Virus record (IMG/VR): IMGVR_UViG_3300043775_001643
Location: 1-22,066 of that record
DNA length: 22,066 nucleotides
Direction: 5' to 3' (one strand)
Source: a virus
The position numbers were made by a program, and so were the translations under genes. This document shows positions 1-3,431 of the stretch, in pieces; within the stretch, counting starts at the first letter, position 1; each line of letters begins with the position of its first letter. The notes beneath the pieces are model-generated. The model was not told the DNA's origin. It did no database searches and worked only from the letters and a program-made list of their open reading frames with translations.

Positions 1-338
1 CCACACAAAATTATGCTCCTCACACCACCTATAAAATAGCTACTAGCTATCTCGATATATGGCTCGGCGCAATGGTAAACACTCTTAACTGAGTTTTGAT
101 AACACGGAATATACATGGCCAGCTCGCAAAACAGTGCTTTTTTTAACATAGCTGGATTTTTAGCCATAATCTCTTGTTTAACGTTGTCTAATGCCACCTG
201 AAACGCTATGCGCTCGCTATCTCTGGCATTTACTAGAACCCTAGCCCTTGCTTGGTGTGGATACCCCGAAGCATGCATACACAATGGCGATATGTTAATT
301 GTGTGTTCGAACTCGAAGCCGTCTTCATAAATTTTCAT
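1..338 (-). CDS. Hypothetical phage protein, 3' end cut by window edge
   Basis: An open frame starts with ATG at 338 and runs without a stop to base 1, giving 112 codons so far; the C-terminus lies outside the window. An AAGG sits nine bases before the ATG, and the start overlaps the end of the replication-like gene by 14 nt, which suggests translational coupling in one leftward operon. The N-terminus reads MKIYEDGFEFEHTI and is followed by a mixed-charge, probably alpha/beta sequence with scattered cysteines but no CxxC pair. I do not recognise the family. Its place straight after an initiator-like gene suggests a replication or early-takeover role, which is inference only. The start is well supported; the full length cannot be judged. 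Confidence 0.7.
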   Translation of the reverse strand, partial: MKIYEDGFEFEHTINISPLCMHASGYPHQARARVLVNARDSERIAFQVALDNVKQEIMAKNPAMLKKALFCELAMYIPCYQNSVKSVYHCAEPYIEIASSYFIGGVRSIILC

Positions 339-1437
339 GATGTAACCTTCGCTTAAAACTCTCTTGCTCAGAAGCATCGGAAATTTTGCTGTATGTGTCA
401 ATAATTTCGGGCGTAGGCATAATTTTCTTAGTAAAGCAGTATAAAGCGATCTCAGCTGCTCTTGTATCGTGTGGCGTATCGTTTTTGTTTGTTTTTGACG
501 TATTACCCATAACCCCAAAAGGACGGCTTGCCATATATTCTTGAGTTTTGCGTAATCTTTGCTCACCGCGTTTTTTGCTAATATATGCAATAGCCCGCTT
601 GGTGGCTTGTTCAACAACTCTATAATCAACCTCATCACGTTTGAGGTGTTTGCACAATATGGTATTCACCTGACTACGCAATTGGTTTTCTGTAGTGGCT
701 GGCGTAATTGTTGAGGCTAACTCCTCTAAAACATGGTTGATTGTCGCTTCGCTCATCTCCCCTCCCCCTCCTTTTTTTATAAAAGGGATGTTAAATGACT
801 TAGCATAACCAAAGTTGTCCGCCTTTGTCATGCTACTTACAATATTTAGAGTCTTATTTATATATATATTACTATAGAGTTTAGTGTCTGTATGCGATGG
901 ATTCGTAAAGGATAGAAGCTGCAAAAACGAGGTAAGTAACAACATGGTTTTTTTAATAGCAGACGGTGATAGAGTGATTTTAAAAAACACTGGGGCAAAC
1001 TTATTTTTACGCCCATTTGTGTTGTTACATTTGTGGCGCTCTAACCAACCTAGCTCAATAAAATAATTGATTGCATCAAAGTACGTTCTTATTGAAACAC
1101 CTGCCCGCTCGGCTATTGTTTCAGATTTAGCAGATAACCAAATCTTATCCGCAAACTCATAAGCACGTGGGCTGCCTTGCTGTGTGGTCTCAACCGTTTT
1201 AGCTAATGTGCATAAAGCACCCCATACCTTTTGCTGAGCTGGGGATAACTTGTTAAAGGTGTAATTATCAACTGTTCCGACTTGCTCGGCAGGGTTAAAC
1301 GCATAACGTTTTTTAGCAGAATTATACAGCTGGGTTTGTTTATTACCTAAAGGCTTTGAAGTAGTTGATTTACTTGTCTCTTTGTGGTAATCTTTATTTA
1401 TATTAGATGAAAGTAATTCAGCTAGACTTTTAATCAT
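325..1437 (-). CDS. Winged-helix replication-initiator-like protein (370 aa)
   Basis: The protein has three parts. Residues about 1-55 are polar and basic. Residues about 65-150 look like a winged helix-turn-helix: KLSPAQQKVWGALCTLAK, then SETIAERAGVSIRTYFDAI (recognition helix region) and LGWLERH as the wing. Residues about 228-370 form a charged helical C-terminal domain. A low-complexity linker at about 175-227 joins them. This architecture resembles phage and plasmid initiation or helicase-loading proteins that pair an N-terminal wHTH with a variable C-terminal domain; I cannot assign a named family. The ATG at 1437 has an AAGGAG eleven bases upstream. It is preceded by a leader ORF whose stop overlaps this start, and it contains a second strong ribosome site at 757-778. 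The stop overlaps the next gene. A transcriptional regulator remains possible. Confidence 0.6.
   Translation of the reverse strand: MIKSLAELLSSNINKDYHKETSKSTTSKPLGNKQTQLYNSAKKRYAFNPAEQVGTVDNYTFNKLSPAQQKVWGALCTLAKTVETTQQGSPRAYEFADKIWLSAKSETIAERAGVSIRTYFDAINYFIELGWLERHKCNNTNGRKNKFAPVFFKITLSPSAIKKTMLLLTSFLQLLSFTNPSHTDTKLYSNIYINKTLNIVSSMTKADNFGYAKSFNIPFIKKGGGGEMSEATINHVLEELASTITPATTENQLRSQVNTILCKHLKRDEVDYRVVEQATKRAIAYISKKRGEQRLRKTQEYMASRPFGVMGNTSKTNKNDTPHDTRAAEIALYCFTKKIMPTPEIIDTYSKISDASEQESFKRRLHHENL
756..778 (-). promoter_or_regulatory. Strong internal Shine-Dalgarno and ATG inside the initiator-like gene
   Basis: On the minus strand an A7 tract (778-772) runs into AAGGAGG, then a purine-only stretch, then an in-frame ATG at 756 (Met228). 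This is the most extreme ribosome-binding sequence in the window and it lies exactly where the low-complexity linker gives way to the charged C-terminal domain. Initiation here would give a separate 143-aa protein, 756 to 325, beginning MSEATINHVLEELAST. The purine run also encodes Lys-Lys-Gly4-Glu in the full-length frame, so the bases serve as coding sequence too. Whether the site is used is inferred. Confidence 0.55.
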
Positions 1438-1550
1438 ATTTAAAAACTCCTTTTTTAGGTATGAAAGTTTTATTAGATGAAAGTAATTTAGCTAGATTTT
1501 TTAAAAAAAATTGAGCTTGAGCTAGATTTTTAATCATGTTTAAAACTCCT
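1401..1550 (-). repeat. Tandem partial copies of the initiator gene's RBS and 5' end
   Basis: Bases 1401-1431 (codons near the start of the initiator-like gene) recur at 1471-1501 with two mismatches in 31. Bases 1421-1452, covering the start codon and its AAGGAG, recur at 1521-1550 with two substitutions and one missing A. The region upstream of the gene is therefore mostly two overlapping, slightly diverged copies of its own beginning, offset by 70 and 100 bases. The duplication created the leader ORF at 1430-1537. Confidence 0.8.
1430..1537 (-). CDS. 35-aa leader ORF overlapping the initiator start
   Basis: ATG at 1537 with AGGAG eight bases upstream opens a 35-codon frame that stops with TAA at 1432-1430, so its last codons read across the ATG at 1437 of the downstream gene in another frame. 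Its N-terminus MIKNLA and the later KNLAKLLSSN mimic the initiator's own N-terminus, MIKSLAELLSSN. Ribosomes finishing the leader would stop a few bases past the initiator start, an arrangement typical of translational coupling or of a leader peptide that gates its downstream gene. It may equally be a by-product of the duplication. The ORF and its SD are seen directly; translation is inferred. Confidence 0.5.
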   Translation of the reverse strand: MIKNLAQAQFFLKNLAKLLSSNKTFIPKKGVFKYD

Positions 1551-1611
1551 AAGTTTAGTAGAGGTTGCTGTTCCCGAATACCGTGGTAAGTTAGAGGGAT
1601 AAAAAATTTAT

Positions 1612-1647
1612 TGGCACTAGTTTAGCATAAAAACTTTACTAGTGCCA
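1612..1647 (-). terminator. Ten-bp perfect hairpin between the Cys4 gene and the leader ORF
   Basis: TGGCACTAGT (1612-1621) and ACTAGTGCCA (1638-1647) are perfect inverted repeats around a 16-nt loop. On the minus strand the stem is followed, after five bases, by six T residues (1606-1601). It lies nine bases beyond the stop of the 56-aa gene, where a terminator or attenuator between the regulator genes and the replication gene would sit. The gap before the T-run makes it imperfect as an intrinsic terminator; the palindrome could instead bind protein. Confidence 0.45.
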
Positions 1648-1655
1648 TAATTTGT

Positions 1656-1826
1656 TTAATCAGGTTTTTCACACCTGCAAAAATACTTTACGTCATATAT
1701 CCGTTTACGCGGTCTTGTTATGTGAGTTAAATTGTCATAACACGTCTCGCAACGCTTAGACTTAAGAAGATTAACCACCTTTGCCCTCACTGGCCGCTTT
1801 GGTTTACTGTTCTCCAAATTCTTCAT
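1656..1826 (-). CDS. Small Cys4 zinc-binding-like protein (56 aa)
   Basis: ATG at 1826 with AAGG seven bases upstream opens a 56-codon frame overlapping the end of the HTH regulator by 23 nt, as expected for coupled phage genes. The N-terminal half is strongly basic (KPKRPVRAK). A CETC pair (Cys26, Cys29) and a CRC pair (Cys50, Cys52) are spaced like the two knuckles of a small zinc finger. Residues between them are again basic (RPRKR). A nucleic-acid-binding accessory is the natural reading, but no named family is recognised. A 10-bp hairpin follows nine bases after the stop. It is below usual ORF length cut-offs, so it could easily be missed. Confidence 0.6.
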   Translation of the reverse strand: MKNLENSKPKRPVRAKVVNLLKSKRCETCYDNLTHITRPRKRIYDVKYFCRCEKPD

Positions 1827-2091
1827 GCCAAGCCTTTAATAATAATAAATCTTTGCTATTTTTTAAAAGATGTTTGCTTTCAGAAACCCACCTTTGCATT
1901 TTCGCAAGAGTTAAAGTACCCATTCCTTTAAGGTTTCCACTACGAACCCTCAACCAATGAGTCCTTGAAATACCTATCTCGGCACAAGCTTCTTGACTAC
2001 TAATTAATTTGGCTTTTATAATTGCTAGGAATAACGGTTCAAAGTTATATCCTGTTATTGTCCCTGCATATGGACCCTTGCTATAAGGCAT
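1804..2091 (-). CDS. Small helix-turn-helix transcriptional regulator (95 aa)
   Basis: The middle of the protein reads as an XRE/Cro-like helix-turn-helix: SSQEACAEIGIS as first helix and turn, RTHWLRVRSGNLKG as recognition helix and loop, and TLTLAKMQRWVSE as the following helix. The remaining C-terminus is short, so it is a DNA-binding domain with little else; no cleavable repressor domain is visible. ATG at 2091 is preceded by AAGGAAG. It is the first gene behind a TTGACA-17-TATACT promoter whose -10 lies in a palindrome, opposite a divergent gene, the classic seat of a Cro- or CI-type switch protein. Being co-oriented with the initiator-like gene favours a Cro-like or early-activator role over a maintenance repressor; that is inference. 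Confidence 0.65.
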   Translation of the reverse strand: MPYSKGPYAGTITGYNFEPLFLAIIKAKLISSQEACAEIGISRTHWLRVRSGNLKGMGTLTLAKMQRWVSESKHLLKNSKDLLLLKAWHEEFGEQ

Positions 2092-2103: not shown

Positions 2104-2132
2104 TTAAAAATGTATGTATTGTTATTTATAGT
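2104..2132 (+). promoter_or_regulatory. Candidate rightward promoter
   Basis: TTAAAA (2104-2109), a 17-base spacer and TATAGT (2127-2132) form a moderate sigma70-type promoter upstream of the AAAGGAG (2146-2152) that serves the GTG start at 2160. The -35 is weak, so activation or tight regulation is possible. It overlaps the palindrome at 2129-2138. Confidence 0.4.
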
Positions 2133-2138
2133 ATACTA
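2129..2138. promoter_or_regulatory. Palindromic operator candidate in the divergent promoter region
   Basis: TAGTATACTA is a perfect 10-bp palindrome centred in the 68-bp gap between the HTH regulator and the 123-aa gene. It contains the -10 of the leftward promoter and overlaps the candidate rightward -10, and a related half site, GAGTATT, follows at once. A protein bound here would block both directions. The HTH protein encoded next door is the obvious candidate ligand, by inference. Confidence 0.45.
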
Positions 2139-2158
2139 GAGTATTAAAGGAGTGTCAA
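2130..2158 (-). promoter_or_regulatory. Strong leftward sigma70-type promoter
   Basis: Read on the minus strand, TTGACA (2158-2153) is followed by exactly 17 bases and TATACT (2135-2130): a consensus -35 and a five-of-six -10. It faces the HTH regulator start at 2091 and would drive the whole leftward early operon. The -35 lies within the first bases upstream of the divergent GTG start, so the two transcription units share their control DNA. Confidence 0.75.
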
Positions 2159-2641: not shown

Positions 2642-2809
2642 ATGTTACCAACTAAATGTTTTCTATGTAATCCATTAGTTCGAGAATATGCAGTCATTCA
2701 TCTTTGCGAGGACTGTAAAGCCAAAGACTTTAGAGATCTTAAGCTTGAGATTCTGATCCGCAAAAACCAACTTCAATCTAACGAAATGGCTGAGTATAAT
2801 GGCTGTTAA
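2642..2809 (+). CDS. Small Cys4 zinc-ribbon-like protein (55 aa)
   Basis: Start at ATG 2642 is set by AAGGAAG just upstream and by the promoter position. Two CxxC knuckles, CFLC (Cys6, Cys9) and CEDC (Cys22, Cys25), are separated by 12 residues, the spacing of a treble-clef or zinc-ribbon fold. The rest is a basic and acidic helix. It overlaps the start of the ERF gene by 11 nt, so the two are translated as a pair from one promoter. Mini zinc-ribbon proteins beside phage recombinases are common, but I cannot name this one; a nucleic-acid or partner-binding role is inferred from fold and neighbour only. Confidence 0.65.
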   Translation: MLPTKCFLCNPLVREYAVIHLCEDCKAKDFRDLKLEILIRKNQLQSNEMAEYNGC

Positions 2810-3431
2810 TTTTGAGTTATCAAGCCTCGACACTGGCGAGCTATACAAGGCACTTACAAAGGCGCAGTCTGCTTTCACTGAGTGTGCCGTTAACGGAAGC
2901 AATCCTTTTTTTAATTCAAAATATGCCTTACTAACAGATTTAATTAAAGCTAGTAGACCTGCCTTAGCTGATAATGGTTTATGCGTTATCAGCAAAATTT
3001 TGCATATTGATGGGGAGATTTACACTGTGTTAGAACTTCACCATGGTGAAAGTCAGCAGTTTACACGCTGTTGGCAAAAACTAGAACCTAACAAAAAAGA
3101 CGCGCATGGATATTCTAGTGCTAATACATACTGGCGCCGTACTATGTATAGAGATTTAATTAACGTAAATTGTGCTGACGGTGATGATGATGATGGAAAT
3201 TATGCTTCTACTAGTGTTCCTAACAATAAAAGTAATAGTGCTAATAATAAGTTAGCTCAAAAAACTGCTGACGTTGCTTCTAACAATCAAAGTGTTATTA
3301 CAAGTAATCAATTAGCGGAATTGGAAGAAAAGCTTTTTGATGACCCTGGATTACGAGATGATATTTTAAAGTTTTATAAAATCACCCATTTATCACAACT
3401 TAAGCAAAGCCAGTTTGCTAAAGTAATATAG
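2799..3431 (+). CDS. erf: ERF-family single-strand annealing protein (210 aa)
   Basis: The protein shows the ERF pattern in order: a helical N-terminus (LYKALTKAQSAF), the NPFFNSKYALLTDLI block at about 35-49, NGLCVISK at about 59-66, a beta strand pair ending YTVLELHH, the YSSANTYWRRTMYRDLINV block at about 104-122 that corresponds to the family's G-S-A-x-T-Y-x-R-R-Y segment, and the acidic DDDDGN at about 129-134. ERF proteins anneal complementary single strands in phage recombination, circularisation or repair. A low-complexity Asn/Ser linker (about 138-168) leads to a small C-terminal helical domain (LAELEEKLFDDPGLRDDI) like those on other phage recombinases. No exonuclease partner is visible nearby. 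It ends against the converging late operon. Family assignment is from motif reading. Confidence 0.85.
   Translation: MAVNFELSSLDTGELYKALTKAQSAFTECAVNGSNPFFNSKYALLTDLIKASRPALADNGLCVISKILHIDGEIYTVLELHHGESQQFTRCWQKLEPNKKDAHGYSSANTYWRRTMYRDLINVNCADGDDDDGNYASTSVPNNKSNSANNKLAQKTADVASNNQSVITSNQLAELEEKLFDDPGLRDDILKFYKITHLSQLKQSQFAKVI

Follow-up and report, generated by a model that had tools for sequence, protein, structure and literature searches.

The initiator-like gene and its surroundings

The window, by which we mean the whole stretch of DNA analysed here, is a 22,066-base contig of an uncultured virus. Near one end it carries, in an operon-like order on the minus strand, an HTH-like gene, a gene for a 56-aa protein, a hairpin, a short leader ORF and a gene for a replication-initiator-like protein. 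The features of this region, in order of their coordinates, are as follows:

325..1437, minus strand: replication-initiator-like gene, 370 aa, named from profile matches; N-terminal winged-helix region at about residues 64-132
1398..1445, minus strand: reference unit C, comprising the SD-proximal bases, the ATG and the first 13 initiator codons
1430..1537, minus strand: leader ORF, 35 aa, MIKNLAQAQFFLKNLAKLLSSNKTFIPKKGVFKYD, with its TAA at 1432-1430
1447..1452, minus strand: Shine-Dalgarno (SD) sequence of the initiator gene (AAGGAG), from reading the sequence
1468..1501, minus strand: copy B, about codons 3-13 only; 34 nt, 91% identical to unit C, offset 70
1517..1545, minus strand: copy A, a duplicate of the start (ATG and first codons); 29 nt, 90% identical to unit C, offset 100
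1546..1550, minus strand: SD sequence of the leader ORF (AGGAG), from reading the sequence
1601..1647, minus strand: hairpin between the 56-aa gene and the leader, with a perfect 10-bp stem (1647-1612) and a T run to 1601
1656..1826, minus strand: gene for a 56-aa protein with cysteine pairs, overlapping the HTH gene by 23 nt
1804..2091, minus strand: gene for a 95-aa HTH-like protein (HTH_17, 0.098, a weak match)
2130..2158, minus strand: putative sigma-70-like promoter, TTGACA-17-TATACT, a consensus match only

The start of the initiator-like gene can be read directly from the sequence as the ATG at 1437-1435 on the minus strand. Its product matches the profiles phrog_186 (E 8.2e-7), phrog_270 (1.1e-4) and phrog_391 (1.2e-4), as well as HTH_36 at 0.0065, which is below the Pfam cut-off, and it is on these moderate matches, together with the sub-threshold one to HTH_36, that we call it a probable initiator. 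A structure model of the protein was too poor for use (pLDDT 51), and none of the solved structures is a clear relative. Within the gene there is also a strong SD sequence followed by an in-frame ATG (754-773, minus strand, AAGGAGGGGGAGGGGAGATGAGC), from which a separate C-terminal product of 143 aa could be made, reflecting either an internal start or a fused gene; this start is nearly invariant in the relatives, even in the contig L004 (see below), where the N-terminal domain has been swapped.

Upstream, the sequence at 2130..2158 is a candidate promoter for an operon comprising the HTH, 56-aa, leader and initiator genes. The hairpin is possibly a terminator or an attenuator; a terminator scan, which considers only loops of 3-8, did not report it, and Rfam gave only mir-263 at this position, a chance match far below the threshold of that family. 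In L005, another related contig, a different stem lies where the window has this hairpin, and it seems that structure rather than sequence is kept at the site. Elsewhere in the window, the major head protein matches phrog_1357, and its close relatives (62-77% identity) were found in three contigs, L082, L083 and L084, binned as Thermotoga, Saccharibacteria and Parachlamydiaceae MAGs, which are probably phage contigs that ended up in these bins.

The 113 bases ahead of the initiator gene had been described, in a first-pass annotation, as holding two diverged copies of the gene's own start at offsets of 70 and 100 bases, each with its ribosome binding site and first codons. Both copies are indeed there at these offsets, but copy B has neither SD sequence nor ATG, and of the two only copy A has both. 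The same annotation's 35-aa ORF with its own AGGAG, formed by the copies, can be read directly at 1537-1430, and its TAA does lie a few bases past the initiator ATG, overlapping the initiator start and ending 8 nt past the first base of that ATG.

Leader versions in related contigs and comparison with chance

Four viral contigs reach upstream of the initiator start: L002 and L003, which share the same version of the leader, L004 and L005. No more versions were found in phage records or genome contigs, additional scans of viral sequences brought up these contigs again, and a search with the HTH gene added none; one apparent relative, L013, was discarded as a chance pattern match within a DNA polymerase-like gene. 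Synteny is kept among the relatives, and their upstream genes overlap too.

The leader of L004 is identical to that of the window at 180 of 181 nt, the single difference being non-synonymous, while initiator codons 31-180 have diverged strongly. The near-identity of these two contigs extends over the leader, the first 15 codons and the C-terminal part, with the N-terminal DNA-binding half diverged, which is, as far as the alignment tells, a pattern of domain-level recombination. L002 and L003 have the last part of the leader in common with the window, plus a tandem duplication of the SD-ATG segment that is 33 nt long, i.e. a multiple of three, so that the leader frame stays open. In both contigs the start in this extra copy (7968-8000 in L003) is in frame with the initiator and has a weakened SD sequence; if used, it would extend the protein by 11 N-terminal residues (MITYLKKEFLN).

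L005 has a leader of unrelated sequence, yet here too the gene's own segment of SD, ATG and first codons is repeated: it occurs three times, the ATGs lying at -105, -52 and 0 (52-53 nt apart), and in part a fourth time. Two of these copies are 91% alike but only 53-62% like the window units, which is what a separate duplication, and not a single ancestral array common to both, would be expected to give. The divergence of L005 stops at about codon 12, near the end of the repeat unit of the window, which suggests that the leader and the first codons behave as one cassette. Taken at the level of sequence, the leaders are thus products of a recurrent self-duplication of the initiator start, in three unlike versions.

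None of the four leader sequences (window, L004, L002/L003 and L005), three of them clearly different, lacks the ORF or carries a frameshift. It ends at +8 from the initiator ATG in the window, L004 and L002, and in L005 two short ORFs (33 and 19 codons) end at -3 and +8, respectively. In contrast, the peptides are not conserved: those of L002/L003 (MKITLLSSNKTKKVVFKYDYIPKKGVFKYD), of L005 (MYKSLYTIKRPDERTVKTCIKIFTKLIPTKGQL) and of the window are three different sequences. The resemblance of the window's leader peptide to the N-terminus of the initiator is real, as had been noticed, and can be attributed to the origin of the leader by duplication of the initiator start; mimicry as a function of the peptide does not survive these differences among relatives, and we rejected it.

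How unusual are such leaders? Self-similarity was scored by aligning the gene start locally with the 150 bases that precede it. The window scores 26.5, whereas 5000 dinucleotide-preserving shuffles never got above 17.5 (0/5000), and L004 (29), L005 (23) and L002 (19.5) each beat all 5000 of their own shuffles. Among 788 starts of ORFs, taken from the window and the fetched phage loci, this score placed L004 first, the window second and L002 fifth, while ranks 3, 4 and 6 went to ORFs that overlap one another within a single repetitive coding region in L023; L005 was left out of the ranking because its gene runs off the contig.

The position of the leader ORF was evaluated by criteria that had been chosen after the sequences were seen: an SD-preceded ORF ending between -10 and +12 of the gene start is present in 4/4 leaders and in 0.4-1.1% of shuffled leaders. 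By the same measure it occurs at six of 91 other starts without a long upstream neighbour (8/93 once the window and L004 are included), and when the first ATG is held fixed, shuffling leaves an ORF ending near the initiator ATG in 6-9% of cases per leader. Obviously, the versions are few and partly related, amounting to about two to three independent cases, since the leaders of the window and L004 are near-identical and that of L002 has its final part in common with them; with this in mind, the ORF rates lend moderate support to selection for coupling.

Proposed translational coupling and alternative explanations

The explanation that we favour, with a probability of about one half, is that the leader ORF arose by recurrent tandem self-duplication and is coupled to the initiator gene by termination-reinitiation. 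Ribosomes recruited by the SD sequence of the leader would translate 19-35 codons and come to a stop right over the initiator start, where the initiator's own SD would let them begin again, so that initiator output would depend on leader translation. Initiator dosage could then easily be retuned by altering how many copies there are and how they are spaced, and the peptide encoded by the leader would probably not matter. Coupling of the leader start to the initiator had been proposed in the first-pass annotation, and as far as position goes this is supported by the short ORFs that end between -3 and +8 in all four leaders. Reinitiation where stop and start overlap is a general phenomenon, strengthened by an SD sequence (PMC2268962). 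Counting against coupling, the initiator gene has a good SD itself, which might suffice without the leader. Furthermore, predicted RNA folding of the leaders is no stronger than that of shuffled sequences (z about 0), and a start-masking stem, typical of tight coupling, is therefore not evident. With the leader start covered, access to the initiator start goes up in the window and in L004, but not in L002, and in L005 it rises only with the whole leader covered. A pairing between the starts of A and C that appeared in one longer fold was gone once the ends of the fold were shifted.

A more elaborate form of this idea, which we offer tentatively and regard as doubtful, is a start-amplification device in which the SD-ATG segment is duplicated into chains of coupled mini-ORFs that tune initiator dosage, the cassette being swapped independently of the DNA-binding domain of the protein.

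The main rival to coupling, and a serious one, is a neutral duplication hotspot, where slippage or annealing recombination repeatedly copies an AT-rich start and the leader ORF is a by-product of little effect. This is quite possible, although we do not hold it to be probable. The period and extent of the duplication differ in every version (30/70, 33 and 52/53 nt), and copies have decayed, copy B being without a start and the L002 copy without an SD sequence. The phage also encodes an Erf-type protein (the Erf-like gene at 2799-3431 in the window), through which annealing recombination could create such a hotspot, and the contig L001 starts at the edge of the repeat, as one would expect if the repeats vary or break assembly. 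However, among the related genomes no other gene start has such a self-duplication, and in all versions short ORFs that end on the initiator start are commoner than expected.

One may also consider that the repeats act as DNA and are bound, at an origin or an autoregulation site, by the initiator or by the HTH protein encoded upstream. Iterons usually take the form of direct repeats beside an initiator gene, and here such repeats do lie beside an initiator-like gene; moreover, the motif TWAAAARTCTA occurs three times in the window, each time at the leader. Nevertheless, L003 has only one copy of this core motif, the spacings of the repeats have no helical phase, and no other direct repeats lie within the gene. 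Nor is the repeat array conserved among the relatives together with the DNA-binding domain: L002 and L005 are alike at 101 of 105 winged-helix residues, yet their repeats are unrelated, whereas the window and L004 are alike at only 61 of 105 and have the same leader; L003 and L005 have close HTH proteins as well, and still the repeats differ. Repeats that do not track the winged-helix domain, together with the single core copy in L003 and none elsewhere in the gene, argue against origin iterons, which we consider very unlikely and rejected. A decoy is also conceivable: the leader start, having its own SD and ATG upstream, would draw ribosomes away from the initiator start and so reduce initiator output, with no coupling between the two. 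We consider this very unlikely as well, since in each version the leader ORF stops on or directly beside the initiator ATG, which favours reinitiation over ribosome loss.

Comparison with known systems

In plasmid R1 (IncFII) the initiator gene is preceded by a short leader ORF to which its translation is coupled (PMC5717011). The likeness of the phage locus to this Tap-RepA pair is that a short leader ORF stands before a probable replication initiator gene, and all four leaders have such an ORF with its own ribosome binding site and a stop that overlaps or abuts the initiator start. In contrast, the phage leader has no significant predicted structure, and structure that masks the initiator start and is opened by leader translation, as in Tap-RepA, was not found in the leaders. 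Control in R1 involves the antisense RNA CopA and RNA structure. Tap is not known to have been copied from the start of repA.

In origin iterons of the lambda O type, direct repeats likewise accompany the initiator gene of a phage, whereas here neither the sequence nor the number of the repeats follows the DNA-binding domain. In Salmonella Genomic Island 1 the leader S004 overlaps the initiator gene repA and has to be translated in cis (PMC7826253); S004 is a separate gene and the system needs a stem-loop, while the phage leader would derive from the initiator start and has no significant predicted stem. The TAACTGA repeats of Beggiatoaceae lie just before start codons and have been proposed to play a role in translation (PMC4679880), but they consist of a fixed heptamer that recurs at many genes, whereas here a single gene has had its own start copied. 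The open-access literature yielded nothing comparable on ribosome binding sites or starts that have been duplicated.

Leader ORFs coupled to initiators are thus already known from plasmids, and what appears to differ here is the origin by self-duplication and its recurrence. The source of coupled leader ORFs is rarely visible, whereas in this case it can be read, the gene's own start having been copied ahead of the gene, and close relatives having versions that differ. If the leaders do control expression, a phage would have in them a simple means, quick to evolve, of setting its replication dosage.
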